Source of the DNA: Ceratodon purpureus
Taxonomy: Eukaryota > Streptophyta > Bryopsida > Pseudoditrichales > Ditrichaceae
Direction of reading: 5' to 3'
Length of the DNA stretch: 64,000 nucleotides
NCBI GenBank assembly: GCA_014871385.1
Contig: CM026426.1
Location: 104,877,281 to 104,941,280 of the forward strand
Shown: positions 7,011 through 26,595 of the stretch, in pieces
How the letters are laid out: each line of letters opens with the position of its first letter
Numbering within the stretch: position 1 is the first letter of the stretch
Position numbers and translations under genes: made by a program
The notes under the pieces: model-generated
Databases searched by the model: none
The model's input: the letters and a program-made list of their open reading frames with translations, nothing else
What the model was told of the DNA's origin: nothing

Positions 7011-8670
7011 CCCCCCCCCCCCCTACTTTTTTTAAATACAAAATGATAAAAACATATAATGCTACATCTTCCGACCACATATTAAACTAAACCTGTTAAT
7101 TTCTTTCACCAATTAAAATCAGAACAGCACTTAATGTTAACATGAATTAAAAGACTTCATGGTATGCAAACCATCTAAATTCTTCAACAAGTCATTATTC
7201 CGTACGCTCCACCCAAGTCAATGTATGTGTCATTTATTCAAATCATTCGTTTTGTTATTTCTATCGTAAGTATTTCATACTGTCTACCATCCCACTCCAG
7301 AAGTTCTTTGCGGAAATCGAACTCATCTAAACCCGTTTCAGAAATTGTAATCTTAATAGTCCTCCGTCTTCTTATTCTCCGCTTTGAATTTTTTTTTTTA
7401 AATACATAAATACTTCTATTATACTTTCATTAAACGGCTTCATATTCTCAATTTAATTCGGGTTACCATCTCTTTATGTACTTTTAACGTTCCTCCCTCT
7501 ATACAATTTCCACTCTCAAATATGTTTTTCATTTACTTCTTCTTTATTTTCCTCTATGTTTTTTCTCCCCTAGTTTATGCCCTTTTTTAAACGTCTAATT
7601 TGTCTAATCTACCACGCCAACCCTCGAAGCTCCATAAATGTCACTGTTGAATTTCATCCTTTTATATCGTTTCAAACGTTCCTATTTCGATTTATTTCCT
7701 CCATGACCCATGTTAAAGTATATTTAACTAATTCGACCACTATTCCACCATTTTACTAATTCTACCCTACTGCTTTAGTTTTAAATTATATTTTACTAGA
7801 TGTACCCTACTGCTTTAGTTTTTATTGACTACTGTACCCCTCTTTCATATATACGTTTTGAACTCTCCATGTATCACTACATCATGGCCGTTGTCTATTT
7901 CTTGTAATAATTATAATTTCGATACTTTCCCTCTCAAACTCTATTTTTTTCGTCTATTATTTCGATGGTTCACTCATTTGTTTACTTATGAATATACTTC
8001 TACTTCACAGTCTTCCCCAAGTGTAGCGATACATTATTTCTTAATATTACACCCGTCGTCGTTATAGTTCTAATATTCATATCCGTCCTCAACCTTCTTA
8101 TTCTTTGTGTTGTTCATTAATATAATTACTTACTATTTAGAAACAATACCACCCCACCAAACATCTTTCATCAGTATTTTTAGTATTCCAATAATATATT
8201 TATTTCTAAAACTATGTCCCATCAATAAACGTTTTCGTGTAATAATTTTATTTCCGTACTTGTAGCTCCAAGTATTTCACGTCGTGACTTTTTGATTTTT
8301 CTTTGGTACACTATAGTCTATGTGTCTCTATGAATTATCGTGTTTGTTTAATTTTCTCATTGTGTCATTAGTAAGTGATTACTTTTGTACGTATATACTA
8401 TACAAGTTGGAATCCAATTCCATATTTATATTTACGTTAAAGTGTATATGAATAAACATATATTCCTATAGTATATAATGTAAATGTCTTACCTAATTTA
8501 TTTATTTTATTTCATATAAGTTACAACTCAATTCTGGGCGTGAGAAACTAGAATTGTTTATAAAAACAATGATTTCAATTTTAGTCGTTCACAAATTGGC
8601 ATTATTCAATGACGATTGAATGTTTTGTTTTTTTGTTTTGTTTTTTACTATTATCCCTTTCTCATCTCAA
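7011..8670. other. AT-rich stretch without recognisable genes
   Basis: AT-rich, pyrimidine-biased DNA. The only structure seen is a short direct repeat around TACCCTACTGCTTTAGTTTT (about 7764 and 7803). No protein homology is recognisable in any frame. It ends at the left terminus of the proposed large hAT element. Confidence 0.5.
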
Positions 8671-8678
8671 AATGTGAG

Positions 8679-8790
8679 CAGGGTTGTCTATTCGGACGGA
8701 CATGGGCAAAATTTCCGGACATAGACGGACGGACGGACGGACGGACCGGTCGGTCCCCGGACATAATCGGACATTGAGGGGAGGAGGAAA
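8679..8790 (+). repeat. Left terminal/subterminal region of the large element
   Basis: Begins CAGGGTTGT, a start common to plant hAT elements, then CGGA tetranucleotide repeats (8724-8744) and three TCGGACAT/CCGGACAT words. The right end carries similar CCGGACG words in mirror orientation. Confidence 0.5.
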
Positions 8791-8907
8791 ATTACTAAGT
8801 TAGTTTTTTTTTTTTACAACTTTCCTATAGGGGACACATATTGATGACATGGACAACGAACGATGACGGGGAATTCCACATATGCAAAAGGGGTGCCAGC
8901 ATGTGTA

Positions 8908-9080
8908 GGGGGCGAGAGCGGGTACAGGGGGGGGCGCGAGCGGGTTCAGGGGGGCGCGAGCGGGTTCAGAGGGGGGGGCGCGAGCGGGTTCAGGGGGGGC
9001 GCGAGCGGATTCAAGGGGGGGGCGCGAGCGGGTTCAGGGGGAATGGGCGCGAGCGGGTTCAGGGGGGGCGCGAGCGGGTT
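8908..9080 (+). repeat. G-run minisatellite array 1
   Basis: About eight units of roughly 20-23 bases built on GGGGGGCGCGAGCGGG plus TTCA or TACA, with G-run length varying from 4 to 8. This is the same unit as in the arrays near B2 and C1. No TATA box or gene start follows on the right, where only the B2 3' end lies, so this copy is either an orphan promoter array or a subterminal repeat. Confidence 0.85.
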
Positions 9081-9336
9081 TCTCGTGCGGCCCATTTTGT
9101 AGATAGTAAATTTTTGACAATGCAAAAAAACCTAACATTTTCATCAGAATAATATATTGGGGCTAAGCGCAATGACAAATGTGTAAATTCAGATACTCGT
9201 GAGCCAAAATACATGGACTTTGCAATGTTGTATATATTTATGAAAGTAAAAGCATTTCATTACCAATTCAAACCAAAACATTACAAAAACTGTAGTATAT
9301 GAAAACTAGTCACTTAGTACTAAGTTGTAACTATTC

Positions 9337-11718
9337 CTATTCATCTGCATCTACTCCCGCTGTGCCACTTGGTCCCGCTCCATCGTCCAGCGTCAAGCTG
9401 CGCCTGGCTCTCGTCCGTGTCCGCCGGAATGGGCCATCACTTTCACTGAGAGAACGCAAAATTTGCGAGTTCCTCAATTCTCTCAATGTACGCAATGTCT
9501 GTGGAGAGTGTTCCTCCAGAAGAAAGTCAACAGCCTCATGTTTGAAAATTAACTTCCACTCCGAAAGAGACATTTGGACTGCATCTCGGGCGGTCAAAGA
9601 CATGAATTGACCTTCGAGGTCTGTAACCAATTCCCCGTCCTTGTTCCATATGAGGCCTTTTGGGTGATTACCAAGTTGGAACTTCCTATGCTTCGGATCC
9701 CAGTATCCATTCAAAGTCTGATAGAAGAAATTTCGTTTCCCTTGGTCCTCCTTCTTTGATCCAATTATCTTCTTTGCCACCCTCACAATCTGATTGGGGT
9801 CATCCTCCCACCCCAACTCGTCACTTACATTGCTCTTGAAGACCGAGTGAGTCTGGGCCCGCCAACTCCAAATCAAATCTTCCCCCCACATGTTGCGGTA
9901 CTGTTCACCTGGTGTGTTTTCGGGATTTCTCTCATGGCTTGGTGGCATGTATGGAGTGAGTCCAAAAACCTCGTACAAGCGTTCATGGAACGGGGATTTG
10001 CACACCGGGCAAAATCTCCTTACCAAAAAAATGTTAATTAAACACATTGGATGGAACATGTGGGTACATGATCCAACTGCCCATCCACCCTCAGGACCAA
10101 ATGTATTTATACACACACTACATTCTTTTGAACCATCCATCACCCACGGTTGAGGATTTGGCCAAAGCTTTCTGCTATTAACTCCTTCCTTCATTTGAAG
10201 ATCATGGCACGAAGTTGCGTTCTTCACATCGAAATTCAACTGGGCCCAATCTATGAGTTCAGGATTCGATTCTTGCTTTGGCATGTTATCTGGATACATA
10301 TCATCTGCGTTAGTCCATGAAGTGAGGCCAAAATTCCTTCGTCTGTTGTGTTGCAAGTACGATTCGTCGATCTTCTTGAACTCTAATGCAATTTGGCGAC
10401 CGCGATCAACGCTGAGAATGGTTGCCACTTTCCACTCGTAGTATGCTTTAGCAAACTTAGAAACAAGGAGCCGCAAATCATTATTGGCTCTCTTCAATGT
10501 CTCCACTTCTCCCGTTAGAGCATTGGGTGGAAATGACAAGGAATCTTGACTTAATGGTCCATCGATGTCCACATAGGGTCGCGGGTATGGGGCTGGTGGA
10601 GGCAATATCACTCCAACTCGTCGTCGTTTTGCTGGAGTGGAAATATTCTCCAACACACCGGCCGTCGCAACATCAACCGTGTTGTTGATGTAAGATTCAT
10701 CCACCAACATTGGATCTTGAACTACAGGTATATCATTGGCTTGAGAAGACTGAGGTCTTTCTCGTTCTTGCAATTGATTGCGCAAATCTGATATTACTGC
10801 ATCTTTTGCTGCTGATTCCAATCGTAGTTTTCGGATGGTCTCTTGTAACTCTGCAATGAAGCCATCCTTTTCTATAACCTGTAATTGCAACTCCCCGACC
10901 TCCTCGGTCTGGTTAGACTGGTCATTTCTAACTAGAACCGGCATGCCAAGAACCATCGTAGGTTCAGTTCCGACCACGTCCAAATTAGCTGCCGTATTTG
11001 GATCGTTTTCCACGAAGATGGTGTTCGCATTGTCGTGAGGTTCTATGACGTCCGCTGGATGGTTCATTGGAGGCTCTACAGCCATATTTGCTGGTGCTGC
11101 AATTCTACGTGGCACTCTTTCTCCACGACGACCATCGGAATCAGAATCTGGTTCAGACTCTGCTGTATCAGGCTCCCGCACTTGTGTTTTTTCCTTCATT
11201 TTTTTCCCCAGGCCACCATCTGCGTATTTCCTTTGTTTGGGAATGTCACGCTCTGTCGACGCCCTAACACTCGGCGTGGATTTGATGGTGGACCAATCCA
11301 CCACTTTGTGAAGCACCACCTAAGCATACACCATTCTGCAAATGAACAATGGTACTTCATTGCGTTCAACACATCGTTGCTTGTATAGATGCTGGTAAAC
11401 TTGTATAGAACGTTCAACAAACTCCGCATTCAAGCAATAATAGAGGTTAGCCTTGTCTGAGATCCTGTGTTTTCTGTGCCGATCATGTGGAAATATTTTT
11501 GTGATGTGGCACCACTCAATGAATTCCTCGCATGTGGAATATTTCCACGGTTCCGGCTCATCTTGCCAACCTCTAAATGCCAACTTTGTCGGGTTGTTCA
11601 GCACATGAAGCCGCTTCTTCATCTTCTTACCACCACGCTTCCGTTCACGATCTCTGATTTTCTTCTTTTCGGCCTTGGTGAGTGGCCTTTCCTCCGCCGG
11701 ATCTGGGTTTCCCTCCAT
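9337..11718 (-). pseudogene. D-domain / coiled-coil / RING-H2 protein B2 with one in-frame stop
   Basis: A 794-codon frame from ATG 11718 has a single break, TAG at 11320-11322, where relatives have an acidic residue (MVYA-E, MVWA-D). A basic N-terminus (RDRERKRGGKKMKKR) leads into the D domain ending VVLHKVVDW. A Ser/Asp-rich linker and long heptad helices (~11000-10400) follow. The RING-H2 is at ~10120-9985 (CSVC, CTHMFH, CPVC). A conserved tail follows with YEVFGL, MPPSHE, FFYQTLNGYWD and a basic C-terminus. B1 shares this whole architecture. Ubiquitin-ligase activity is inferred from the RING. It is divergent to C1 and lies at the left end of the large element. The gene would be intact but for one codon. 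Confidence 0.8.
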
Positions 11719-11837
11719 CGTGGTCTACTGGTAAAGTTTTGTGTGTTAAAAAACACACCAACTCCTCAAAACTTCCCCCAATTGATTTTACAATTTTCCT
11801 CCGTGGTTGATTATGGTATTGTAACTATACTTTGTGG

Positions 11838-11999
11838 CCCACCCAAGTATTCAGCAATAAGCCACCGTGAGGTAGTTTAGGGCCCGAATTCCCGGATGAG
11901 CGTACAAAATACGGTAGAACGAGGTACGTTGCGCTGTCAAAATGCTGTAGACCCCACCCAAGTACTCAGCAATAAGCCACCGCGAGGTAGTTCAAGGCC
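11838..11999. repeat. Duplicated ~47-bp motif in the B2 leader
   Basis: Two direct copies (about 11838-11884 and 11953-11999) share CCCACCCAAGTA, CAGCAATAAGCCACCG and GAGGTAGTT with only a few differences. They lie between the B2 ATG and its TATA box, so they would be in the 5' leader or its intron. Confidence 0.75.
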
Positions 12000-12056
12000 T
12001 GAGTGCCAAGGTGGAGCTTAAAAAGTGGGGGGGGGGGGGGGGGAGGGCGCCCCCTT

Positions 12057-12067
12057 CACTTATATAG
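12057..12067 (-). promoter_or_regulatory. TATA box of B2
   Basis: On the minus strand GACTATATAAG lies about 340 bases upstream of the B2 ATG, directly adjoining the G-run array. The identical 11-base core occurs at the C1 promoter. Confidence 0.55.
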
Positions 12068-12356
12068 TCGGGGGTCGGGGGGGGGGGGGGGGGCGCGAGC
12101 GGGGTCGGGGGGGCGCGAGCGGCTGAGGGGGGGGGCGCGAGCGGGATTAAGGGGGGGCGCGAGCGGGATTAAGGGGAAGCGCGCGCGGGTTTAGGGGGGG
12201 CGCGAGCGGGTCTTGGGGGGGGGGGGGGGGGGGGGGCGCGAGCGAGTTAGGAAGGCGCGAGCGGGTATGGGGGGGGGGGCGCGAGCGGGTTCAGGGGGAG
12301 GTGCGCAAGCGGGTATGGGGGGGCGCGAGCGAGATCAAGGGAGGGCGCGAGACGGT
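12068..12356 (+). repeat. G-run minisatellite array 2 (upstream of B2)
   Basis: About a dozen irregular units of GGGGGGCGCGAGCGGG with TTAAG, TTAG, TATG or TTCAG spacers and G-runs of up to about 20. G-rich on the plus strand, hence C-rich on the B2 sense strand. Confidence 0.85.
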
Positions 12357-12499
12357 CCCCCTCTTAAAACAAACTCTCATTTCCTTAGGAGTACCATTGA
12401 AGAAGGTTGGAAGACAATAATAAAAACAAATGCAATGGATTTTTTCACCATTTCTCTCTAAAATAAAATTAAAAATTAAAAATTAAAAAGAGATATTAA

Positions 12500-13480
12500 A
12501 ATAAGGAATACTGATTTGAATAATTTGGGGATGAGATATCAAATTATAGAAAAACAATCATGACTATAATAAGGGACTCGGGATAAAAAGGGATGAATAA
12601 CATGGGATGAAAGAAGTTATCAAGATGAATAAATCTCATGGTGATTAGAAACTGAGTTATGCCATAACGGAATACTGATCTAATGCACCATGAATAATAT
12701 AATGTTGACTACAAAAAAATTAGTGTATTAATATTAGAAGAGATGTGGAAATCTAAAAAAGATAAAACATTGGAAGAGACGAAGGGAATAAAATAAAATC
12801 AATAGCATGGAGTGGAAGAGATAAAGGGAATAAAATTAAAAGAATAGCATGGTGTGGAAGAGAGTTGGATTAGAGTTTAAAAAAATAAAAAATATAATGC
12901 ATTGTACATACGGATCCTACAATGCTCTAACATAAAATGAAAAATATAAAGAATCATAAAGAAGGGCTCGATGCAATTGGTTTGGCTGATAAACAGAATA
13001 AAATTAAATCAATAGCATGGAGTGGAAGAGATAAAAGGAATAAAATAAAAAGAATAGCATGGTGTGGAAATACGCAGGATTAGAGTTTAAAAAAATAAAA
13101 AATATAATGCATTGTACTTACGAATCCTACAATGCTCTAACATATAATAAAAAAAAAAATGAATCATAAAGAAGGGCTCGATGCAATTGGTTTGGCAGAT
13201 AAACGGAATAAAATTAAATCAATAGCATGGAGTGGAAGAGATAAAAGGAATAAAATAAAAAGAATAGCATGGTGTGGAAAAGAGTTGGATTAGAGTTTAA
13301 AAAAATAAAAAATATAATGCATTGTACATACGGATCCTACAATGCTCTAACATATTATAAAGAATCATAAAGAAGGGATCGATGCAATTGGTTTGGGAGA
13401 TAGACGTTTTAAAATTAAATCAACAGCATGGAGTGGAAGAGAGCTGCATGAGAGGTTGTGCATGTATAAAATCCCAATAC
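12500..13480. repeat. AT-rich 210-bp tandem repeat between divergent genes B2 and C1
   Basis: The landmark AATAGCATGGAGTGGAAGAG occurs at 12801, 13011 and 13221 (period exactly 210), with a degenerate copy near 13422. Each unit also contains ATAATGCATTGTAC, CCTACAATGCTCTAACAT and GATGCAATTGGTTTGG. Sequence before ~12720 looks like degenerate flanking DNA. No coding potential is seen. The block separates two G-run arrays. Confidence 0.85.
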
Positions 13481-13595
13481 TTTCTATTTTTTAATTTGTT
13501 TTATTTTATTTCTTTCTCTTAGAAAGTAGTGTAGAGATTTCACTATTTCCAGAAGAAAAATAGAAAATAAAAAATTAGTTGGAAAACAAATGGAA

Positions 13596-13847
13596 GGGGG
13601 GGGCGCGAGCGTGTCCGAGGGGGCGCGAACGGGTGGGGGGGGCGCGGACGGGTACGGGCGCGAGCGGGTACAGGGGCGCGAGCGGGTCGGGGGGCGCGAG
13701 CGGGTACGGGGGGGGGCGCGAACGGGTATAGGGGGGGGGGGGGGGGCGCGAGCGGGTACAGGGGGGCGCGAGCGGGTACAGGGGGGCGCGAGCGGGTACA
13801 GGGGGGCGCGAGCGGGTTCAGGGGGGGCGCGAGCGGGTCCGTGGGGG
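13596..13847 (+). repeat. G-run minisatellite array 3 (upstream of C1)
   Basis: About eleven units of GCGCGAGCGGG with TACA, TTCA or TATA spacers and G-runs, ending 2-3 bases before the C1 TATA box. Four consecutive units near 13746-13820 are almost identical, suggesting recent expansion. Confidence 0.88.
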
Positions 13848-13858
13848 ACTATATAAGG
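13848..13858 (+). promoter_or_regulatory. TATA box of C1
   Basis: ACTATATAAGG directly follows array 3. Transcription would start near 13880. A leader intron is likely, because a T-rich tract ending in CAG (acceptor at 13996-13997) lies 14 bases before the ATG at 14012. Confidence 0.65.
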
Positions 13859-14011
13859 TGGGGAGAAGCTCTCGCCCCCCTCACTCCTTCCCACTGCGGC
13901 TCCTTGTCCTGACGTGTGAAAACACGCCTTGCTTGGAACTGCTTATGTGGGAAGTCTTCATTGGGGCGGGGGGGGAAGTTGTTGATTTTTTTTTCAGGGA
14001 TTTACTTTGCG

Positions 14012-15592
14012 ATGTCTTCTAGACAAGGCTCCGGCAAGCGGCCTATCTATGTGGACTTGGATGCTCCAGATGCGGTGGACCCTATGAGTTGCGTAACACC
14101 TCATGGTTCTACTGGTTCTACTCCTTCATCTAGCTCGAAGGGTAAAAAGAAGAAGAGTATTCCAGCGCACGAGAAGGATGACGGTTATCCACCATTGGAG
14201 TATACGCATTTCATCAGGAAGGTGGCCGTCGAGTACTACAAGGCCCGTACCATACGAATGTTGAAGGCAATGTACCTTGATCACGGAGAGAATGGTATCT
14301 ACAACCTCCAACGTGATTTGGAAAGGGAATTTTGGAGCGCATTGGAAGGATCAGAGATGTACATGGATTGCATGACGAAGTATTTTCACAGCCCGAAGTG
14401 GTTGACACAACAAGTGAGTAGTGCTACGACAAATGTCATTCATGTCTTTGAATCACATGTCAAGAAACCACAAGGCGAAGAATGGAGCAACCAAGACAAA
14501 GTGTTTATTCAAAAACTGACAACGGTTCAGGAGGCATGTCAGAGATGTTCTAAGGGGAAAACAAAGATTATGCCTTGGAATGAGCAAGCATTGAACTCAG
14601 CATTGGAAGCACACATGTATGGTGCATTGATATGGATTCCGGTTACGGCCAAGGTTGTGCCATTATCTGGCTTCAATGCCGAGGGGGGGTATGGCAAAGT
14701 GCGAAAAGTGCGAATAGCCAATATGAAGAAAATTCCAATTCACATAGAATTTGCGGGAAAACTTTCCAAGGCTAAAACCGAAGTGAAGAAGCGAGAGGAA
14801 CGGGCGATTGAGGCCACGGTTAACCCCGTAGAGCATCCGGGTGTGATAAAATTTTGGGCCATTCACTCGAAGACTATGGAAGCTTATACCCTGTGGTGGA
14901 ATGGAGATTGCCTCCGCAACTTCCTCAAATTAAATGAGAAGGCAACCGAGGCAACAGATTACAAAGAAATTTTGAAGTCGAGGGATATGCCCATGGAAGA
15001 GTGCCAAAGAATTGTTGCCTATCGAAAGAACCGGGGAATGTTGGCGTGGAGTCTCATCTACGTTATGGACATAGTCCATAAGGCTGAAATCCTCCACAAC
15101 GACTTAACGCCATCCAACATTCTACTCCACTTTCCACCTCATGACAAGGATAAAGTATATATTGGTGTGTGCGATTGGGGTGTGGCAAGCAGAGTCATTG
15201 AGAACAAGGCCTCCCCTTATGGTGTGATGGACCCCGATGAACTTGTACAAGTAAAGGAGAGGAGGGTAGGAGTTGCACCGGAGTTGTTCTTTTTATATGG
15301 CAAAAAAGATGATGAGGAACGGAATTTGGAGCGCATGAAGAGGATGCATCCATGTACGACGCTATTTGATGCATTTTCGGTAGGCCATTTGGCAAAGAAG
15401 ATATGGAGAGAAGAAGGTTGCCCAGAACTCTTCAAGGATTCAATCTCAAAGATTGTATTCTCATCAAAGTTGGATGGCTTGCTTAACGAAGATCCTACAA
15501 AGAGGCTTTCACTTGCAAAAGTTGTGAATGATTTGATGAGCCCCCCTTACAACTTCCAAGCTCCCAATGGTTGTTTTAGATACACATTGTAG
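14012..15592 (+). CDS. Protein-kinase-like protein C1, intact (526 aa)
   Basis: The frame also extends upstream, but ATG 14012 is chosen because a splice acceptor (TTTTTTTTCAG) ends at 13997. Residues ~1-210 are a basic, Ser-rich start and a helical region of unknown function. The kinase domain follows: glycine loop GGYGKVRKV (~223), candidate beta-3 lysine in FAGKL, catalytic loop HNDLTPSN (~361; HRD replaced by HND), metal motif CDWG (DFG replaced by DWG), and an APE-like motif APEL (~423). The main catalytic residues are present, so phosphotransfer is plausible; the substrate is unknown. Its relative C2 is damaged. The gene lies between B2 (divergent) and A2 (same strand) in the large element and looks like cargo. 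Confidence 0.8.
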   Translation: MSSRQGSGKRPIYVDLDAPDAVDPMSCVTPHGSTGSTPSSSSKGKKKKSIPAHEKDDGYPPLEYTHFIRKVAVEYYKARTIRMLKAMYLDHGENGIYNLQRDLEREFWSALEGSEMYMDCMTKYFHSPKWLTQQVSSATTNVIHVFESHVKKPQGEEWSNQDKVFIQKLTTVQEACQRCSKGKTKIMPWNEQALNSALEAHMYGALIWIPVTAKVVPLSGFNAEGGYGKVRKVRIANMKKIPIHIEFAGKLSKAKTEVKKREERAIEATVNPVEHPGVIKFWAIHSKTMEAYTLWWNGDCLRNFLKLNEKATEATDYKEILKSRDMPMEECQRIVAYRKNRGMLAWSLIYVMDIVHKAEILHNDLTPSNILLHFPPHDKDKVYIGVCDWGVASRVIENKASPYGVMDPDELVQVKERRVGVAPELFFLYGKKDDEERNLERMKRMHPCTTLFDAFSVGHLAKKIWREEGCPELFKDSISKIVFSSKLDGLLNEDPTKRLSLAKVVNDLMSPPYNFQAPNGCFRYTL

Positions 15593-15810
15593 TTCCATAG
15601 TGAATTACGTTTGGAACATTTTGATTGCCTATGTGGCCTTGTTTGCACATTTCTAATATTTTAATAAATTGTTTTTTCGGCGTATACATGCCTTGGTGGA
15701 ACATGAAATGGTATTGTTGGTTTTGTAATGGAATGAAAAATTGTTTTTAAAAAAAAAATTAAAAAACTGTATGCCCCATTCACCGGGACTGCCCCTCGTA
15801 CAAGGGTGCC

Positions 15811-16190
15811 TCCCCCCTGAACCCGCTCGCGCCCCCCCCCCCTCTGGAAGCTCGCGCCCCCCCCCCCCCCCCCCTTCCAGAAGCTCGCGCCCCCCCTCTG
15901 AGAAGCTCGCGCCCCCCTTTGCAGTAGGTTGCGCCCCCCCCCCCCCCCCCTTGGAGAAGCTCGTGCCCCCCCCCTGGAGAAGCTCGCGCCCCCCCTGGAG
16001 AAGCTCGCGCCCCCCCTGGAGAAGCTCGCGCCCCCCCTGGAGAAGCTCGCGCCCCCCCTGGAGAAGCTCGCGCCCCCCCTGGAGAAGCTCGCGCCCCCCC
16101 CTGAAGAAGCTCGCGCCCCCCCACCTGGAGAAACTCGCGCCCCCTGCACACGCTCGCGCCCCCCCGCCTGGAGAAACTCGCGCCCCCCCT
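15811..16190 (-). repeat. Reverse-oriented G-run minisatellite array 4 (upstream of A2)
   Basis: On the plus strand, units of GAGAAGCTCGCGCCCCCC(C)TG repeat; six consecutive copies around 15970-16100 are nearly perfect. The reverse complement has the same GGGGGGCGCGAGC core as arrays 1-3 with a different spacer (TTCTCCAG). The array therefore shares the motif but is inverted relative to the gene it precedes. Confidence 0.85.
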
Positions 16191-16194
16191 CACG

Positions 16195-16204
16195 AGTATA
16201 AATG
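16195..16204 (+). promoter_or_regulatory. TATA box of A2
   Basis: AGTATAAATG follows the end of array 4. A leader intron is probable: ACTAACACTTGCAG ends at 16364 as acceptor, and the coding ATG lies at 16401. Confidence 0.6.
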
Positions 16205-16400
16205 CCACCAACTTAGCCCAAGCCCAATATCATTTGAAATCATGGCCTCTAGTCCCGGAACTCCTTGTGGGCTCCTTGCTTGAGACTATGTGCATCACAT
16301 TGGCCTGTGGTTGATGTCTACACATACCATTTTTTTCTCACATGTGTCATACTAACACTTGCAGACAGGAGATCATTGTACTTTTTCAGAGACACGGAGA

Positions 16401-19184
16401 ATGGCAGGTCAACAGCGTCAGTCGACGGCTGAGTGGGCTCCGTGGTGGACGTTCATTGATAAGGACCATGTGAAATGTGTGTGGTGCAATTTCACCTTTC
16501 GTTATAAACGACAAAGAGCTTTCAAGCACTATGGATGGGGTGAAGGTTCAAGCAAGAGTCATTGTACCAAGGCCCCCGCCGCCGTATTTAGGCGCTTTGC
16601 CAATTGTGGTAATGTAATACCAAAAAGAATGACACATGCGGAGATATACGGCACTGATGGTGGTGATGGCGAGGCACACTTGGCACACTTGGCACCATGT
16701 TCTAGCCAGTCTATGCCTGCTGAGCAATCTACGGAAGTGCCTCAGAGAACGGAGGAGGTCCAAGAGGAGAGGATTTCCCAAGTTCAACCGTCTCAGTCAA
16801 CTCCGCCTATAAGCAGAGGCGATTCATGTACACCAAGATCTATGCGGCAACAAAGTTTTACCGAGGCCTATCAGATTGGGATGCGCAATGAATTGGATGA
16901 GAAATGGGCGTCCTATTTTTACGAAGCGAATGTGCCTTTCAATGTGGTTAGACATCCATCTTTTATCGCTGCTGTGGAGGCAACATCGAAAGCGGGTTTT
17001 GTGTACCGTCCACCAGCATACAACGCAATGCGAACCAAGCACATCCAGCCAACAAAGCAGCTTCTCAAGTTGAGAATAGAGGAGAAAACGAAGCAGTGTA
17101 TTAGCTTGTACGGGGCAACTATTTGCTCGGATGGATGGGACAACGTTGTTCATCGGCCGTTGATGAATGTCATGCTTGTGTGTCCAGCAGGAGATATATT
17201 CCTGGGTTCCATTGATACAACGGGGTACAAGAAATCAAAGGCATACATAGCTGGGAAATTGAAAGAGTGCATCAAAGAAGTTGGACCGCAGAATGTGGTA
17301 CAGATTTGCTCCGACAATGCTAGTGCGATGTTGGGAGCCATGGACCAGGTGGTTGAAGCTTATCCTCACATTTACAAGCAAGGTTGTGCAGCTCACATCA
17401 TGGACCTCTTACTAGAAGATTGGGGGAAGGAAGCAACCTTCAAAGAGCTGATTGCCTTGGCAAAACGCATACCAAATTTTATACGTCGCCGTCATGTCAC
17501 CATGGCTTTGTTTCGCCAATTCAGCCCGAAGTTGTCTCTGTTGTTACCAGCGGAGACAAGATTTGGATGCCAGTACTTGATGATTGTTCGATTGCTTGAA
17601 CTGAGGGAGGCACTAATCCAGGTGGTAGCCAGTCCGAAATGGGACGAATATGTGGGTACTTTATTCAATCGGTCAAACGGGTATCGAGCTCACACCTTAG
17701 CATGTCAAGTACGGAGTACCATTCTCGATGAGACATTTTGGTTACGTTGTGAGAATCTTGTGCATGTTATGAAGCCGGCTGTTGTGACCTTGAAGACATT
17801 TGATGGACAAACACCGGCAATGGGGAGGGCATGGTTGGCCATGAATAATTTGAAGAAGCATGTGTTCCGTCTACGGGGTGATCCTTTTTTCCTAGACCCC
17901 GCTATAGCAGGGCGCTTTGAGAAACATTTTACGAAGAGATGGAAGATGATGTTGACAGATCTCCATTACGCAGGCGCCATTTTGAATCCCTACATTTTCC
18001 CGGAGAGCCACGAGCTATTGACTAACAGTGCTGCGAAGCGTGCACTCCTGCAAGTGCTAATTCATTTGAGTGAGTCCCTTAAACTGGACCATGATACTGT
18101 GATGTTCGAGCTAACACAGTTTGAGGAACGCACCGGTCCATTCAGCCCTTTGGAGGCCCCAAACATTCGACAGACTAAGATGCTACCTCATCAATGGTGG
18201 CAGCGGGTTGGGGGCGATGCGTTACCGTTGATAGCAAAGCGCATCCTTTCGTTAACATGCTCGGCATCATCATGTGAGCGAAATTGGAGCATGTATTCCT
18301 TTGTTCACAGTAAGGTTCGCAACCGATTGGCCGTGAAGAAGGCAGAGGACTTGGTGTACATTTACACGAACAGTAAGCTCCTTCGAGAACGACGTGGAGC
18401 GGATCCTGTTCTTTGGTACGAGAACCAACCGTTCTCCGAAGACTCGGATGAAGAAGTGCCAGCCATGTACGATGAAGACGTATGTGATGATGATGGAGAT
18501 GAAGGATTCCACGACGGACTTGAAGTTAATGAAGGCGATGGTGATGACGGTGGAGTTCATTACACTCCTGCTACTATGGATGATGAGTATCCAGAGTTAC
18601 CCGTGGACAATGGTGATGGTGACATGCCACGCACTGAACCCGTTAACCAGCCGAATGGAGTTTTTGACTGGGCAGGATTTGATGAAGAGGCAGCTACTTT
18701 GCCTCACCACGTTGTCAATGAAATACAAACTAGAGGCGAGGTCGCATACGATCGGGCAGACGATGATATTGACGATGAATTTGAAGTCGAAATGACTCAG
18801 CATCAAAGCGACGATGGTGGCAATAATGATGACATTTACCCCGTTCGTAGCGTTTCGAACAATGACAATGAAGAAGGGGGTAACAACATGGGAGAGCAAA
18901 TTCCAATTCCAGAAGACGTTGAGGGAGGAGAAGAAGTTGAACAACTCCAGGCCACTCTGCCAGTAAATGTTGAGGAAACAATCAGGTCTGGAGGTTTGGA
19001 TGAAAGCCCTCCAAGAAATGAACAATCAGAGACAGTCAGAAATGGACAAGAAGATGAAATTCCTATTGGCCGATTGTTTCAAACACCCCTGCCCCGAGTA
19101 CACCTTCAATCGGAGCAGTACTTGCAGGGTTGGGTCGACCCCCCCCACCTCGTTCAAGCACTTCTACTGGGCATGGTTCATTAA
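16401..19184 (+). CDS. hAT-superfamily transposase A2, intact (927 aa)
   Basis: ATG 16401 (MAGQQRQ) follows a likely acceptor at 16364; the longer frame upstream would start inside the intron. A BED-type finger opens the protein (CVWC ... KHYGW ... SHC, residues ~26-55). The DUF659/RNase H region follows with CSDGWDN (~243) and CSDNASAM (~304), candidate catalytic acids, and GCAAHIMDLLLEDW. The hAT C-terminal dimerisation region is at ~600-650 (SCERNWSMYSFVHSKVRNRL). A long acidic tail then leads to PIGRLF. Compared with A1 the end is short. A C8 tract at 19139-19146 precedes the stop, and the alternative frame continues into a Ser/Thr/Pro-rich basic stretch, so a slippage truncation is possible. 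It probably cuts and pastes the surrounding element. Confidence 0.88.
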   Translation: MAGQQRQSTAEWAPWWTFIDKDHVKCVWCNFTFRYKRQRAFKHYGWGEGSSKSHCTKAPAAVFRRFANCGNVIPKRMTHAEIYGTDGGDGEAHLAHLAPCSSQSMPAEQSTEVPQRTEEVQEERISQVQPSQSTPPISRGDSCTPRSMRQQSFTEAYQIGMRNELDEKWASYFYEANVPFNVVRHPSFIAAVEATSKAGFVYRPPAYNAMRTKHIQPTKQLLKLRIEEKTKQCISLYGATICSDGWDNVVHRPLMNVMLVCPAGDIFLGSIDTTGYKKSKAYIAGKLKECIKEVGPQNVVQICSDNASAMLGAMDQVVEAYPHIYKQGCAAHIMDLLLEDWGKEATFKELIALAKRIPNFIRRRHVTMALFRQFSPKLSLLLPAETRFGCQYLMIVRLLELREALIQVVASPKWDEYVGTLFNRSNGYRAHTLACQVRSTILDETFWLRCENLVHVMKPAVVTLKTFDGQTPAMGRAWLAMNNLKKHVFRLRGDPFFLDPAIAGRFEKHFTKRWKMMLTDLHYAGAILNPYIFPESHELLTNSAAKRALLQVLIHLSESLKLDHDTVMFELTQFEERTGPFSPLEAPNIRQTKMLPHQWWQRVGGDALPLIAKRILSLTCSASSCERNWSMYSFVHSKVRNRLAVKKAEDLVYIYTNSKLLRERRGADPVLWYENQPFSEDSDEEVPAMYDEDVCDDDGDEGFHDGLEVNEGDGDDGGVHYTPATMDDEYPELPVDNGDGDMPRTEPVNQPNGVFDWAGFDEEAATLPHHVVNEIQTRGEVAYDRADDDIDDEFEVEMTQHQSDDGGNNDDIYPVRSVSNNDNEEGGNNMGEQIPIPEDVEGGEEVEQLQATLPVNVEETIRSGGLDESPPRNEQSETVRNGQEDEIPIGRLFQTPLPRVHLQSEQYLQGWVDPPHLVQALLLGMVH

Positions 19185-19344
19185 CTCCAACACCGAATAC
19201 AAGCATTCCACTCACTTCTTCTGGACGAAGTCTACCAGCTGGACCTTCTACGACGCGTCATGGAGTGATACGGTCACGGAAAGGTCCAACAAACGTTTGC
19301 CCTTTTTTTTCAGGATATACTGTTGGAACTACCCCGTCTTTACC

Positions 19345-19680
19345 TGTGGCTGTGGGTCCCCCGGGGACGGCCGTGGCCCAACCCGCGTTCGGAGGTCCGA
19401 TCCGCGTGGACGGCCGTCGCTGTCCACGCGGTCGCACCCCCCGACCGCGGGGTGGAGCACGGCCGTCCCCGCGGTTGGCCGCGGCCATCCACGTGGTCGG
19501 CCGTCCCGACCGCGGGGCGGCGGTCCACCGACGCACCATTTGGGAAGCGGTCGCGGCCGCGATCCTGGACGGCCGCGACCGGTCATGCGACGGACCTGTT
19601 ACGGCCGTTGGATTCTCCATTCCCCGAGATTTAACGGCCGTTGGGGGGCCGTCGTTTGACCTAACTGGCTGTCTAGGGGT
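19345..19680. repeat. CGGCCGT-rich GC array upstream of D
   Basis: Dense CGGCCGT, CGCGGTCGG and GGACGGCC words, the same compositional class as 6584-7010 and 25005-25640. It directly precedes the TATA hairpin at 19684. Open frames through it are compositional. Confidence 0.8.
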
Positions 19681-19683
19681 TCG

Positions 19684-19704
19684 GGCCAGCATAAAAGGCT
19701 GGCC
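19684..19704 (+). promoter_or_regulatory. D core promoter: TATA in a hairpin loop
   Basis: A perfect inverted repeat with 7-base arms (GGCCAGC / GCTGGCC) encloses ATAAAAG. The coding ATG is 1.1 kb downstream because a 740-bp element is inserted between. A likely splice acceptor (GGTTTTTTGGCAG) lies just after that insertion, at ~20638. Confidence 0.5.
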
Positions 19705-19875
19705 TTGCATCCTTTTTCTCCACTTGGGTGCTCGTGCTACATGTGCTGGATTTAGTTCAGCTCAGTTGCGTTCCTCCAAGCTTTTTCTACTTTCCCACGG
19801 GTTATCGTGGGATTGTATATGGGGTTGTCAGCACCATTTGTTGGTTATTATGAAACCAACAAAATAGTGCTTCAT

Positions 19876-20615
19876 GGGGGGAAGCATGATAAAGTGTACA
19901 GGAAAAGTGCTTATCTATTTGTCAATTTCAGCCCTTTTGCAAAAAGTGCACAAAAGTGATGGAAAGATGTAATTGAAGTCAAATTTTTTTACTAAGATAG
20001 ATTCTCAACTTGTTTTTGTACAACTTGGAAAAGTTTCGTGCAAAGTGGACACTTTAAAGTTATTGTTTGAGGGCTTCAAACCCAAGCAAAGTGAATGCAA
20101 TAATTTGAAAAAGTGGCTATAAAAGAATAAAAAACTATCTAAAAATCTTTTTTGATGATGTGGGGCCCTCTGTATGTTTAAGAAGTATTATAAAATAGTC
20201 AATTCATATACTCATCAATTGGTTTGAGGTTCCAAAAGTACCGCAAAGATGTTATTTAGGAGGGTCACTTCCGCGGTACTTTTTGTCACTTTTTTTTCAC
20301 CGAACATTGTTTTCTAAATTGGAAAAAACATCTTCTAAAGTCAATAGAGGGCCCCAAATGAAGAAATTAAGACATTGAAAAAGTTCATTTTCATGATTTA
20401 GAACTAGTGGTCAAATTAAGTTTCAATTGAAGATCTTTTCTTCCTGAAGATGTATATAAGATACATTGTGACATCCAAAAACGTGTCTAAAATGCTCAAA
20501 AACTACACCAAAATGCTCAAAATCAGATTTGAGCTTTGAAAAACAGCACACTTCATAATCACTTCCATCTGGTCACATCGGTCACTTTGTTGTACACTTT
20601 ATCATGCTTCCCCCC
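19876..20615. mobile_element. 740-bp inverted-repeat element M1 with 4-bp target duplication
   Basis: Perfect 25-base terminal inverted repeats begin GGGGGGAAGCATGATAAAGT and end in the complement at 20615. Target duplication TCAT is present at 19872-19875 and 20616-20619. The interior is closely similar throughout to the element at 25853-26591. No transposase is encoded, so it is non-autonomous. A 4-bp duplication fits superfamilies such as Sola; assignment is tentative. It sits in the leader region of gene D. Confidence 0.9.
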
Positions 20616-20784
20616 TCATACGTACGGTTTTTTGGCAGGAGTTCTTGGTTTTGTTTTGGTCCTTATGCACTAGATATATACGAGATTAAATCAACTTTTA
20701 TACGGTGGGGAGAAGTTACAGTCATTGTTACAAGGTTGGTTTGATACACGGTATTCACAGGTACTCGCTTACTGGACTTTCGTC

Positions 20785-22287
20785 ATGCCTCGTAACGACC
20801 GGGGAGGATCCTCCACTCCAAAAAGGAAACACCCCTTGGGTCTATACGCTACGAATGACCCTGATTGCGTAGCAGAGTTTGGATGGGAGGGGGAACCATC
20901 ACCATGGCGGATGGTAACTTGCAAGGAATATGTAAAGATGAAGCACCTCATGAAGTTGATCCCAATACATCTACGTACCGAGGCTGCGGAGAAACAGGCA
21001 ACACGGGGAGAGATCAGGATCGACAATTGTGAAAGTAATCATTTCAAAATTACATATAACGAGGTGTTTCGAGCAGCTAATATCCAGAACTCCCGACCCC
21101 ATATCATGTTGTATTCGAATATGGCAATGGTGTGGGCGGACATAGTCTTACACAAGAGGGTTGACTGGACCACAATCTTGGGCCTGAGGACAGATAGAAT
21201 GAACAGAGAAAGCATGGATCTTAAAACAGACTGAGTTGGACATAGCAATTGTCCCCCACTACATATTTCAAACCGTCAGAGTCCACCGGCACGGGATGCA
21301 GGAATACAAACTCTAGCCATCGAATATAATGATGAGGAACAGGAGAGACGTCGTTTAAGCTATGATTATGAAGACAACTATCGAGGGCGTCGCTCAAACA
21401 AAAATCCCAGGAATCGCAGAGGGCATCGTCGCAGAGAGTCATCGCGTACCAACCATGACGAGTATGGACAAACCTCTGCCCACGGGGGACACCGTTCGCG
21501 AGATCGTCAAGACATGGGACCCCACGAACGAGGCTATGGCCACGGGGAGCCGGAAGGAGCTGATTTACCCTTTGACTTTGCGGATGATGCGTATGGACCG
21601 TATGGGGGACGACCTTGGCCAGATTATGCAACGGGATCAAGATACTTTAGTAACTATGACGACGGCTGGTCGGAAATACCGAGTCCTCCAAGGAGTGCTA
21701 GTCCCCGCCATCGAACACCTGCGAGAGAGGTACCTCACGGTTATTCCCTAGATCGCGAAGAAGTTACGCAGAGACTGGGACGTGATGATTACGCAACTCC
21801 CCCTCCATACCACGGATATGGTGGTCATGCTACCCCATTTGCCCTTTTTGCAGAAGATGATTACAGATCATCTTCGCAGACTCCGCCTGGAATATTTCCT
21901 CCACCTCTAGGTTATCACACCGACGGTACTGATCACAATAGCGAGGACAACCGCAACGTACTTCATCCCGATGACAGAGTACCACCTCCTCCTTTTGGAT
22001 ACCCTCCCGGTCGAGTTGTAAGAGATAGCTATTTTGAGGAAGAATTAGAGTTGGAGCGGACAAGGCAAAATTATGTACTACAGATGGAGAATCATGCATT
22101 TCACCTTAGACGGGATAATCGAAGATTGATGGAGGAGAGAGAGAGACTTTTGAGAGCCTCCACAAATTATGGAGGGCACGGGCCACGAGAAACGTACGAT
22201 CGGGGAGGTCCAAGCGAACTCCCCAATGATGGGAACTATTATCATCCATATGACTACAATGGATTAGGGTGGAGGGGAGACTATTAG
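20785..22287 (+). pseudogene. D-domain coiled-coil protein D without RING, one in-frame stop
   Basis: A 501-codon frame from ATG 20785 (TCGTCATGCC) is broken only by TGA at 21232-21234; the frame before and after is continuous. Residues ~30-135 are the D domain: PSPWRMVTCKEYVKMKHLMK ... MAMVWADIVLHKRVDW. After the stop the product is Arg/Tyr/Pro/Gly-rich and disordered (YGPYGG, PPPPFGYPPG). A short charged helix rich in Glu/Arg follows (FEEELELERTRQNY ... RRLMEERERLL), then an Asn/Tyr-rich end. There is no RING or other catalytic motif. Function is unknown; by analogy with the fused D-RING proteins it may be a partner or adaptor. Its promoter is probably the TATA hairpin at 19684, separated by M1. 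Confidence 0.65.
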
Positions 22288-23222
22288 AATGGGGTGAATG
22301 GTAGTACTATCTACAGCATCGGAGCGTACCGAGTCTTTAATGTGGACATCGCATATTACAAATTTACAGCGTAAAGTAAAAGATGCAAGCATAGTGTGTA
22401 CGTAGTTTGCAGTTTTGTAGATGGAGGTTTAAAATGTACGGACTTAAAAAAATTGGCACATGCCACATATTGCAAATAGAATAGATAGAATTAGTGGAAT
22501 AGAGTGTAGTTGTGTTGTCTTGTATATTGTAGTTGTCTTGACATTTGAAAGGAATTTGTCTTTTTAATCTTCTCCTAGCGGTATTCTAAGTGCACATTAA
22601 CATCAATATCACTATTTTTAAAATGACAACTTACCATTGACATGGGTTACGAGCACTTGAATATTATGAATCTCAAGACAAGTATGCAAAATAATTTTCA
22701 ATTATTTTTTTTGCTAAATTAATAAGAATATCGTGAATGATCTTTTTCGAGGGATGCATATTTATATTTAAGCTATTTGTTTGTACCGGGGATTATGAGC
22801 AATCATGTTATGCGACCCTTACGCTTTTGTCTTCACAAAAAGGACTTCAGTATACACCTGCCAATATTTCTAAGACTAAAACGTACAAAGCATAATGGTT
22901 ACAATTCACATATCACATCATTTTCATAATTAGAATTGAGACTATCGACTTTTAGCAGGATGTGTGGAGCCAATCCGTTTTCCAAAGAATACAAGGGGTA
23001 GAAATAGACCAATCTTAGTACAGAGACCATATTTGAACCAAATGCAAGTAAACTTTATAAACAAAATATTGACCGATGTACAAAAATTGAGATTCCAACA
23101 TCTCATAATAATATAGAGTCTAAATATAACTATTCACTACTGAGAGCTATGCCCGCCGTCCGGTAACAAAAAAAACATTATGCTTTTATAGGAATACGGA
23201 AAGGTAGATATGTCTCTCCATA
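22288..23222. other. Convergent spacer between D and C2
   Basis: AT-rich, with presumed 3' UTRs of both genes. No additional gene, repeat or inverted structure was recognised. Confidence 0.5.
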
Positions 23223-24764
23223 TCAGTAACCCACGCGGTAGTGTTTGAAGGGAGTGGGCCAGTCGTGTGTATCTGTGAAACGGTTAATAAGATGTCCGAG
23301 TCCACCAATCGTTCCTCTGTTGTTTTGGCAAACTCTCTCAAGGTAACCTTCGAATACCATTGCGAGTTCTCCGATATTCTTGAAATGGCGTGTTTCTACT
23401 AGCTCCGCTTCGTGGTATGTTGTGCACATGTTGCCCCTGTTGATCTTTGCCGCAATCTTCGCGGCTGCGAAATCCTCGGATGCAACCGTCAAATCCGGAA
23501 TGATTTGAATATCTTGGTTTTCCTTGTGTACGTATACCACGCGAGGATCCACCCAGTATCGCCTCCTCATAGTCTCCTCCATCTGATGGACACTCTCAAA
23601 AACCCAAGGCGACCTTCTGTTCTCTAGTGTCTTCGTCATCAAGCCCCAATCACAAACCCCGATATAGATCTTGGACTCATCTTCCGGAAAGTGAAGTAGG
23701 ATGTTGTCCGGTGACAAGTCATTGTGGAGGTAACCGTATTTGTGCACAGCATCTATGATGTTACACAATGCTCAAGCAATCTCTATACGCTTACTTCGGA
23801 AAAGTTGGAGACGCTTCCCTAGAATCGGACTGTCGTCTGCATTCTCTCTGAAGATGTAGTCGATGGGGAGGTCACCCGGGGCCTCGTTGTCTCTCTGTAG
23901 CATGGCTCGAAGGGTCCCATCGTTCCACTAGTACATGAATCCCACATGTTCCAACTGATGAATGGCCATGAAGCGGATGACACCAGGATGGGGAATCCTT
24001 ATCGCAAGAGATTCATTGTTGTGGTCCACACGTGCCAAATCCGGCCTCATAGACCAATTGAGCGGCCGTTCCTCAGCAAACTCCCAGAATGGTGGGATTT
24101 CCGGGTTTCCCTCGATACGAACCCTGCGTATGGTAGCATAACCACCTCTCTGAACTTCCTTGTCCAAGTAATAGAAAATTGCAAAGTCTGCCAAGATAGT
24201 CAAATGCCGTCTACGTAAGTCAGCCGCCGTCTCCATCCCAATCGGAAAATTCCACCAAGTAATAGACGCCCGTCGATGCTTTCTTGAGCTTCGGGGCGCC
24301 ATTAGTCTCGTGAAGCAATCTGACTTTGCAATAGTATCCTTGAAGGCCTGGACTCCCCCCCTTTGCGCCTTTGCATACTTAGAAATAACCTCACGAGCAT
24401 TCCATAACGCATCGTGTGCACGCTGTGACACGAAATGATCGTAACTGGGCTTCTGTGTATCCGAATGCCAGCACGGATCCGTCAAACGATCCCTAATCTT
24501 TCCCTCCATCTCTGACTTGAATTTCTTGGGCCCATATTCCTCATACCGCACGTAACGACTATTCAATGAAACAAGGGTATTCTCCTCATAAAATTCCACG
24601 ATGAATGCCACAATATAATCCCTCCAACGTAAGCTCGGCATGTCATCGAATTTGTTCGCCCATTCCCCAACATTCTTCTGCTTCTTGTTCTTTGGCACGT
24701 GGAAAGCCTTCAAGGCTTCAAGAAATCGAATCCGCAACTCCAAATAAACCCTCAATTCCCACAA
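23223..24764 (-). pseudogene. Kinase-like protein C2, two in-frame stops, probably a pseudokinase
   Basis: One frame runs 24764-23223, interrupted by TAG at 23928-23930 and TGA at about 23770-23772. Alignment with C1 puts both stops at Trp codons (TLWWNGD / FMY-stop-WNDG; LAWSLIY / EIA-stop-ALCN). Visible motifs are glycine loop RGGYATIRRVRI, catalytic loop HNDLSPDNILLHF, and CDWGLM. The beta-3 lysine region reads FAEE where C1 has FAGK, and APE is replaced by VDPR, so the ancestor may already have lacked normal catalysis. There is no ATG near the 5' end; the first internal Met is at MPSLRW, aligned with YPPLEY in C1, so an upstream exon or a lost start is likely. The GC array and TATA palindrome lie just upstream, next to the element's right end. 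Confidence 0.75.
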
Positions 24765-24977
24765 AGATTAATAAGAGCAATACAAATCCAAAGGGTTTTG
24801 AAAAAAACCGTTTAAAAATTCGAAAAGTCCCACCCCCCCCCCCCCCCCCCCTCCCCCCCCCCAAATGAAGGACCCCTTTCCTCCCGGTGAGAACGACCAA
24901 CGGAGAAGGAGCGAATCCCCCACCAGTACCAATGAGCCTCACTCGATATGGGAGGAAAAAGGTAAAAAATGAAGAGG

Positions 24978-25004
24978 CGGCTTCCCCTTATATAGGGGAA
25001 GCCG
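24978..25004 (-). promoter_or_regulatory. C2 core promoter: TATA at centre of perfect inverted repeat
   Basis: Arms of 11 bases (CGGCTTCCCCT and AGGGGAAGCCG) pair perfectly around TATAT; on the minus strand this reads CCTATATAAGG. It lies ~215 bases upstream of the C2 frame and abuts the CGGCCGT array. It is the clearest of three promoters with this design. Confidence 0.6.
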
Positions 25005-25640
25005 ACCTCGCGGCCGTCCCCATGGCCGTCCCCGCAGCCGTTCGATCTACGGCCCCCGCGGCCGTCCGATCCAGCGCGACGCCGCCGGAAGGCGCCGGCC
25101 GTCCGATCGGACGGCCGCGTCGTGCGATGGCGCCGCGTGGCCGTCGCTCGACACGGCCGTCTGCGCGGTCGGCCGCGTCTCCACGCGGTCGGCCACGCGG
25201 ACGGCCGCGGGATCGGACGGCCCTCCGCGGCCGACCATGCCGGCCGCGGGCCGTCGGATCCCGTGGCCGTCCCCGCGGCCAACCGCGGAGACGGCCGCCG
25301 GATCGGACGGCCACGGGGACGGCCGCGGGATCCGACGGCCCGCGCCGGGGCCGATCCGGGCCGTCGGATCCCGCGGCCGTCCCCGTGGCCGTCCCCGCGG
25401 TCGGCCACGGCGACGGCCGCGGGATCCGACCGCTCGCGATGTGCCAGGACGGCCGCATCTTGGCCGTCGGATCGAGGTGCGGCCGTCCCCAGCGACCCCG
25501 GGGCCGTCTCCGCGGCCGTTCCCGCGAACGGACGGCCGAGATGGGGCGTGGTGGCGGGATCGGCCGGTCGGACGGTTGGGGGATGTTTTTACCCCACGGG
25601 GTCGCAAAATTATTAGCGCGACGTAATTCTCGAGCGTCGG
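25005..25640. repeat. CGGCCGT-rich GC array upstream of C2
   Basis: The longest of the three GC arrays. CGGCCGTCCCCG, GCGGCCGTC and GGGATCGGACGG words recur on both strands. It ends in GGACGTCC-type repeats that merge into the right terminus of the large element. Confidence 0.82.
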
Positions 25641-25705
25641 GGACGCCACGTCAGCGACGGGGGACGTCCGGGTCGGACGTCCGGACGTCTATTTGAACAA
25701 CCTTG
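25641..25705 (-). repeat. Right terminal/subterminal region of the large element
   Basis: Read inward from 25705, the end starts CAAGGTTGTTCAAATAGACG and continues with three GGACGTCC/CCGGACGT words. The first nine bases match the left end at eight positions. Confidence 0.5.
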
Positions 25706-25852
25706 AGTGTGACATCATGCAGACAAAAGACAAGGATGGTATTTGTGGAACATGATATGAAAATGAGATAGAGTGTTATTGACATATTATCAAACTCAAT
25801 CGATTACATAACACCTTGTAGAAATGGAGAACATTAGCCGATGACGATGTTT

Positions 25853-26591: not shown

Positions 26592-26595
26592 GTTT

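Follow-up and report, generated by a model that had tools for sequence, protein, structure and literature searches.

We examined a window of 64,000 bases from the genome of the moss Ceratodon purpureus (contig C6, positions 104877281-104941280) in which two multigene DNA transposons of the hAT superfamily, here called hAT1 and hAT2, lie one inside the other. C6 comprises 110,524,308 bases, 30% of the 362.5 Mb assembly, and we take it to be the male V chromosome, going by the naming convention for the letters 'VG' in the protein name KC19_VG232100. A review gives a size of 358 Mb for Ceratodon R40, with sex chromosomes making up about 30% of the genome (PMC13120521). The first-pass annotation of this DNA described one hAT element of about 17 kb between positions 8679 and 25705, carrying RING, kinase and other cargo genes beside an intact BED/hAT transposase, and likened it to the Starship elements of fungi. 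Its inventory is sound. Five genes lie between the two positions, encoding a RING protein, a kinase, a hAT transposase, the protein of a gene D and a second kinase; the end words are there too (CAGGGTTGT at 8679 and, on the reverse strand, CAAGGTTGT ending at 25705), as are the CGGAC words inside both ends. The two ends, however, belong to different elements, an outcome that the first-pass annotation had itself named as a refutation of the single element.

The inner element, hAT1, occupies positions 8679-19357 on the forward strand and has an intact 5' end and a truncated 3' end. Its left terminus, CAGGGTTGTCTATTCGGACGGACATGGGC (8679-8707, forward strand), is a 29-mer present at 136 places genome-wide (61 + 75) and at none for the reversed control. 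Such genome-wide counts, here and below, are lower bounds, and because the best candidates alone were scored and listed they are biased towards intact copies. The element carries three intronless genes, B reading leftward and C and A reading rightward. Gene B (9337-11718, reverse strand) encodes a RING-H2 protein with a conserved N-terminal domain and has a stop at codon 133 in the window copy. Gene C (14012-15592, forward strand), which is open in the window copy, encodes a divergent protein kinase of 526 aa (Pfam Pkinase, E 9e-11). Gene A (16401-19184, forward strand) encodes a hAT transposase of 927 aa with the Pfam domains DUF659 and Dimer_Tnp_hAT; its frame has 942 codons here, as against 1076-1118 in 41 of 49 listed copies. 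The description of A as intact holds in so far as the frame is open across the DUF659 and dimerisation domains; full intactness does not follow, since its tail is an atypical one shared with two other listed copies and the last 1.14 kb of hAT1 is missing.

The outer element, hAT2, lies on the reverse strand in two parts, a distal one (1-8678) and a proximal one (19358-25705) that runs to the terminus at 25687-25705, which reads GTCTATTTGAACAACCTTG on the forward strand. All four of its genes can be traced here. Gene C' (23223-24767, reverse strand) encodes a kinase and has two stops in the window copy, where a copy on contig C2 has a 491-aa frame. Gene D (20785-22287, forward strand, one stop) specifies a protein of about 500 aa that has the N-terminal domain of B and in which no RING was recognised. 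Gene B' (3148-6329, reverse strand) encodes a RING protein, in two frames here and in one frame of 1056 aa in the C2 copy. The C-terminal part of the transposase gene A' fills positions 1-1979 (forward strand), and its N-terminal part lies near position -3800, before the window, with an insertion between. This insertion of about 3.4 kb (L068, roughly -3540 to -90), which splits the transposase, itself holds coding-like frames. It was the likeness of D to the N-terminal part of B, and of the second kinase to the first, that gave the first suggestion of two related elements.

The hAT1 copy landed inside an older hAT2 copy, and a later deletion fused the two at 19357/19358. Within the 8 kb read upstream of the window, the far end of hAT2, CAGGGTTGTCACGGTCG, is found at position -4511 (C6:104872769), 4.5 kb before the window, and is preceded by AGTGTGAC (-4519 to -4512), the same eight bases that follow 25705 (25706-25713). 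Because this target-site duplication (TSD) stands at both flanks, 25705 closes the outer hAT2, which spans about 30 kb today and contains the hAT1 copy, an inverted-repeat element of 0.74 kb and, ahead of the window, another insertion in A'. A hAT2 copy on contig C1 aligns in reverse, with gaps, to 166-8679 and 19359-25432 of the window at 82-94% identity (91-94% in the distal part, 82-94% over 19359-25432). On the left, hAT1 is preceded by AATGTGAG (8671-8678, forward strand), one copy of its TSD, whose right partner we infer to have been lost in the deletion; the hAT2 copies on C1 and C2 are uninterrupted where hAT1 begins and preserve the empty site, AATGTGAG joined to CTAGTG. On the right, the alignment to the window ended at 19357 in all five hAT1 copies compared, out of 29 other loci, and none of the window's end words is the hAT1 right end, GTCCCATGAACAACCCTG. 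With up to three mismatches allowed, the 31-mer spanning 19357/19358 has no second occurrence in the genome, and the junction thus reflects one local event. The deletion removed 1138 bp of hAT1, relative to copy E022, and 1.3-1.4 kb of hAT2.

One hAT running from 8679 to 25705, possibly as a self-transposing hybrid, had in its favour the CAGGGTTGT-type termini common to both ends and the equality of six of the eight flanking bases. Each end, however, has a partner of its own: the 25705 end pairs over 30 kb under a perfect 8/8 TSD, and in 28 of the 29 other copies fetched, the left end is paired with a right end that belongs to its family. Together with the unique junction and the uninterrupted target site at 8678 in two other hAT2 copies, this rules out the single 17 kb element, and the uniqueness of the junction in the genome also rules out a mobile hybrid of hAT1 and hAT2; on present evidence we regard the idea as refuted, with next to no chance of returning. 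The 6/8 flank match is best put down to chance. If base frequencies are equal, a given pair matches at six or more of eight bases with a probability of 0.004, and such a match arose in 1 of 342 deliberately mismatched hAT1 flank pairs, that one from neighbouring copies sharing a flank, and in 3 of 72 such hAT2 pairs, one of them from neighbouring copies sharing a flank. The end words themselves are real transposon ends, since CAGGGTTGT followed after 5-25 bases by CGGAC occurs at 386 + 616 places against 5 + 5 for the reversed control (overlapping matches counted).

Across the genome hAT1, at about 12 kb, moves as a unit and makes 8-bp duplications. Gene A is present in at least 49 copies (97-100% identity), 48 of them without an inner stop, and gene C in at least 82 (also 97-100%), 79 of them without a stop; in 53 of 57 listed copies B (792 aa, 98-100% identity) has no inner stop. 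The clustering of B and C with A, for which the first-pass annotation proposed a test, is borne out. The kinase lies 723-935 bp upstream of 43 of the 49 listed A genes, on the same strand, and 2.1-6.3 kb from 46 of the 57 listed B genes. An exact left end is found within 12 kb upstream of 48 of 55 listed C genes on C1-C7 and, for 39 of the 57 B genes, 0.6-0.7 kb past their 3' end; conversely, a listed C or A lies downstream of 54 of the 100 left ends listed out of 136. The right end, GTCCCATGAACAACCCTG, stands about 1.3 kb past the conserved part of A; one of the 28 loci that have it differs by one base, upstream of the last 11, and in the remaining locus (L029) it was not found within the stretch examined.

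TSDs were sought in 20 hAT1 copies. Both ends could be placed in 19, and 18 of these have perfect 8-bp duplications, all different. The exception, L016, has the left flank of its neighbour L015, which suggests a local duplication. Six complete copies, 11.9-12.6 kb in length, have perfect TSDs; A (about 1094 aa) is open in all six, C (526 aa) in five and B (about 792 aa) in four, B being shortened in E015 and both B and C broken in E011. In another copy (C3:24319313-24325166) the kinase lies 0.7 kb from the left end, and B has therefore apparently been deleted, leaving a natural derivative without it. Two relatives of the hAT1 ends resembling miniature inverted-repeat transposable elements occur on C2 (540153-540415 and 11280880-11281121); they are about 0.24-0.26 kb long, with one end of the CAGGGTTGTCATAAC(G/A)G(G)AC type and the other reading CAGGGTTGTTCATGGGAC.

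hAT2 likewise moves as a unit with 8-bp duplications. It measures about 16.7 kb when uninterrupted, and its genes run in the order C' (forward), D (reverse), B' (forward), A' (reverse). The reference used at first (C1:7858307 onwards), in which neither a far end nor a second TSD was found within 21.8 kb, was replaced by the C2 copy, which is 16,666 bp long, is flanked by the TSD GTGAGCTA and encodes C' of 491 aa, D of 500 aa, B' of 1056 aa and an A' with one stop; in many other copies A' has a frame of 1032 codons. By eye, B' of the C2 copy shows a RING-like CxxC...CxH..HxxC...CxxC pattern. A search with the second kinase returned at least 150 copies, many with an open frame of 495 codons, and the 26-mer of the far end, with one mismatch allowed, occurs at 229 places and at none in the control. 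When the first 100 of the 150 listed kinases were paired with 100 listed of the 229 ends, 38 pairs emerged, 27 at 16.3-17.6 kb and the others at 5-40 kb, the lengths being estimates with a fixed offset of 2045 bp. In a hand-picked set of 41 of the 150 kinases and 96 of 150 DUF659 rows, 22 kinases have a listed DUF659 12.2-13.1 kb away.

Ten further hAT2 copies were tried for TSDs; nine have both ends and seven a perfect duplication. The failures are L073/L074, one flank of which equals that of a neighbour, and L089/L090, and in the copy L081/L082 one end was not found. Including the window and C2 copies, 9 of the 12 copies tried have perfect TSDs and 11 have both ends. C6, with 30% of the genome, holds 110 of the 150 listed hAT2 kinases, among them every listed row below 93% identity, and 18 of the 82 listed hAT1 kinases. 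It seems, then, that the sex chromosome retains old hAT2 copies.

A third family, hAT3, links genes of the A, B and C kinds in yet another order, B, A, C, all in the same direction. With a diverged metagenome kinase (P0062) as query, 79 loci were found in the Ceratodon genome, eight belonging to hAT1 and 71 to a new kind of kinase, mostly with a 557-codon frame. A transposase fragment 4.3 kb from one of these kinases has 104 copies. The hAT3 transposase lies 2.44-2.64 kb upstream of 56 of the 71 listed kinases, on the same strand; three more have one 15-20 kb away, 12 have no listed A, and on the opposite strand none was found within 20 kb of the 71. A diverged B (P0126) used as query gave 55 loci, and at 41 of them a hAT3 transposase follows 3.9-7.1 kb downstream in the same orientation. 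There is also a fourth class of DUF659 proteins, with 22 listed copies that have a frame of 1095 codons.

The proteins of the three families are deeply diverged. Transposase identity is 35% between hAT1 and hAT2, 57% between hAT1 and hAT3 (over a 400-aa fragment) and 38% between hAT2 and hAT3; DUF659 is present in all three, and Dimer_Tnp_hAT scores above its cut-off in A of hAT1 and A' of hAT2. Between families the kinases are 28-51% identical, and B is 27% identical between hAT1 and hAT2. In an alignment of 26 kinase sequences, the others 30-75% identical to C of hAT1, residues K250, H362, D364 and N369 are invariant and D388 is at least 90% conserved, as are the motifs HND (invariant) and DWG (at least 90%). 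C therefore has the active-site residues of a eukaryotic protein kinase (beta3 Lys, HxD Asp, DxG Asp and Asn). GGYG/GGYA, FAxK, HND, CDWG and WWNG recur in the kinases of hAT1, hAT2 and hAT3 (a fragment in hAT3). Solved kinases are only distantly related, the best PDB profile match being a MAP kinase (E 5e-5). In B, the Cys/His set of the RING is conserved in 16 sequences, with one ligand either His or Cys, and by profile the nearest RINGs are those of the RING-H2 proteins RNF24, RNF38 and Arkadia; the conserved N-terminal domain is common to B and D. An NCBIfam search gave nothing specific.

Copies of hAT1 A differ by a median nucleotide distance of 0.55%. The ratio of nonsynonymous to synonymous substitution rates (dN/dS) is 0.15 for A (30 copies; an earlier estimate from pairs more than 0.5% different was 0.21), 0.30 for B (7 copies including the window), and for C 0.46 at full length (6 copies including the window) and 0.43 over 600 bp (28 copies). 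Values below 1 are indications, not proof, of constraint during the spread of the family, as the pairs are not independent. In metagenomes, homologues of A, B and C descend in similar identity ladders (selected values of 78, 63, 62 and 56% for A, 75, 69, 64 and 60% for B, and 75, 67, 65, 61 and 55% for C), and they include clusters with 43 members at 56%, 47 at 50% and 47 at 55%. These parallels are hints that related three-gene elements may exist in other organisms. The kinase profile gave three weak partial matches in bacterial and archaeal genomes and none in viral contigs.

The locus contains two nested multigene hATs, and we consider it likely, and hold with good confidence, that B and C are no passenger cargo but form with each other an accessory module, inherited together, to which the element owes greater success of its own. 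The gene kinds are kept and their order is changed across the diverged families, which argues for long-term retention, and B and C have the look of a module of long standing and not of recent captures. That the module serves the element we infer from three things: deeply diverged families have all retained the set, its genes are mostly open in the listed copies, and the relatives found in the libraries searched are distant. It probably acts by controlling either silencing or the transposase. The presence of a kinase together with a RING-H2 protein suggests phosphorylation-directed ubiquitination: phosphorylation by the kinase would mark a target, and the RING-H2 protein, if it is an E3 ligase as we assume, would ubiquitinate what has been marked. 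The target could be a host silencing or repair factor, which would be removed, or the transposase, which would be adjusted; by analogy with other elements, a silencing factor seems slightly favoured over the transposase or repair proteins. A bolder version, which we put forward tentatively and at somewhat less than even chances, is that of an ancient bryophyte hAT lineage with its own signalling unit, which would evade silencing through the degradation of a silencing factor marked by phosphorylation and, to judge by the metagenomic relatives of A, B and C, would be widespread.

The nearest competitor places B and C directly in the chemistry or timing of transposition, for example in phosphorylating A or in tying excision to the cell cycle, with no anti-silencing role. 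The constant linkage to A in three families is what it would lead one to expect; however, hATs elsewhere, such as Ac and Tol2, move with one protein, and no listed kinase lies near the fourth DUF659 class, and we think this reading rather unlikely, if still worth serious attention. Much less probable is Pack-type capture, by which B and C would be host genes or fragments picked up recently and carried passively. Capture of host genes is frequent in plant DNA transposons, as stated for Mutator-like elements (PMC6446971), but here the same gene kinds recur in three diverged families, as single-exon genes that are open in most listed copies and bear a purifying signal, and their kinase and RING relatives in Pfam and PDB are only distant (host paralogues in the genome having been searched non-exhaustively). 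We judge it just as improbable that B and C are Starship-like cargo that rides on the element and benefits the host in stress, defence or sexual competition. The size of the element, its several genes and their open frames in many copies fit such a role, whereas the sameness of the genes (97-100% identity in the listed 49 A, 82 C and 57 B copies) and a transposase of the hAT type in place of a tyrosine recombinase do not.

Several observations weigh against an accessory module that serves the element. B and C could, after all, be cargo useful to the host. The APE motif of the hAT2 kinase is degenerate, and the dN/dS values come from few, non-independent copies at low divergence, those of C (0.43-0.46) indicating moderate constraint. 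No listed C or A lies downstream of 46 of the 100 listed hAT1 left ends, which stems in part from the listing of best candidates. No ends or TSDs were found for hAT3, whose B is known by its location and not by its sequence. Finally, none of the 82 hAT1, 150 hAT2 and 71 hAT3 listed kinases lies within 20 kb of the fourth DUF659 class, a comparison that included no search for an unfamiliar kinase; the module may therefore not be universal.

Both families also contain repeat arrays. That of hAT1 is a G-rich minisatellite with units of about 20-24 bp of the CGCGAGCGGGTTCAGGGGGG type (8904-9091, forward strand), found by repeat search and matched by similar arrays in other copies; further blocks lie between the genes at 12065-12350 and 13595-13850 and, inverted, at 15792-16200. 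These G-rich arrays, present in both orientations, are candidates for promoters or transposase binding sites. The hAT2 array is different, GGCCGTCC-rich, and is found at 19358-19620 and 25001-25560. The separate inverted-repeat element of about 0.74 kb within hAT2 (19876-20615, forward strand) was recognised by repeat search, by a gap in the alignment with hAT2 and by its inverted end words. Its ends are like GGGGGGAAGCATGATAAAGTGTACA. A relative lies just outside hAT2, at about 25852-26600; in two stretches of 300 bases the similarity between them is 85-87%.

Three hAT families in one moss thus keep a kinase and a RING protein near their transposase, with dozens to 150 listed gene copies each, many of them near-identical. 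They provide, in a moss that can be cultured, a natural system for testing what appears to be a transposon's own post-translational control, and open the accessory proteins of plant DNA transposons to experiment. NCBI lists a relative of the transposase, KC19_VG232100 (P0139), simply as a hypothetical protein. In this way element genes can pass into annotation as genes of the host, and intact ones may inflate the gene counts of the Ceratodon sex chromosomes, which bears on statements about gene-rich UV sex chromosomes.

By superfamily the moss elements are hATs of the Ac/Tam3 type, DUF659 branch. They share with it the 8-bp TSDs, the combination of DUF659 and Dimer_Tnp_hAT, and short terminal inverted repeats of the CAGGG type, CAGGGTTGT standing at both ends of hAT1 and of hAT2. 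They differ in having two to three further conserved genes and a length of 12-17 kb, whereas known hATs mostly encode one protein and plant cut-and-paste transposons are generally thought to need one or two. We found no description of multigene hATs with kinase and RING genes in the open-access literature (the Ceratodon genome paper fell outside this search). The existence of hAT elements with RING and kinase genes, which was the wider claim of the first-pass annotation, is upheld and has gained in strength, while the plant counterpart of a Starship that it saw in them is a weak analogy. Like Starships, the moss elements are large and move several genes together. Starships have a tyrosine-recombinase captain and variable cargo; the moss elements have a hAT transposase and a fixed module, the same kinds of gene recur in three diverged families, and no such captain was detected among the 20 open reading frames of the window scanned for domains. 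The cargo does not vary: six complete hAT1 copies have the same B, C and A set, sometimes broken, and listed copies are near-identical.

Other parallels come from transposons that bring proteins of their own, shown or proposed to act against silencing. VANDAL and MuDR elements of plants, with mudrB, vanB and vanC, are also DNA transposons with dedicated non-transposase proteins, VANC being an anti-silencing factor of VANDAL elements (PMC6446971). They belong to a different transposase superfamily, and the sections of that paper available to us describe no kinase or RING protein for them. Pfam scans of the moss transposases gave DUF659/hAT only and no Mutator transposase. In rust fungi, transposons bearing TET/JBP genes, hAT7 among them, encode proteins proposed to counter silencing (Kojima 2025, PMC12730594). 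hAT7 resembles the moss elements as a hAT with an additional enzyme gene proposed to act against silencing, and differs from them in its 7-bp TSDs, its rust-fungal hosts and its use of a dioxygenase where the moss elements have a kinase and a RING protein (PMC12730594).

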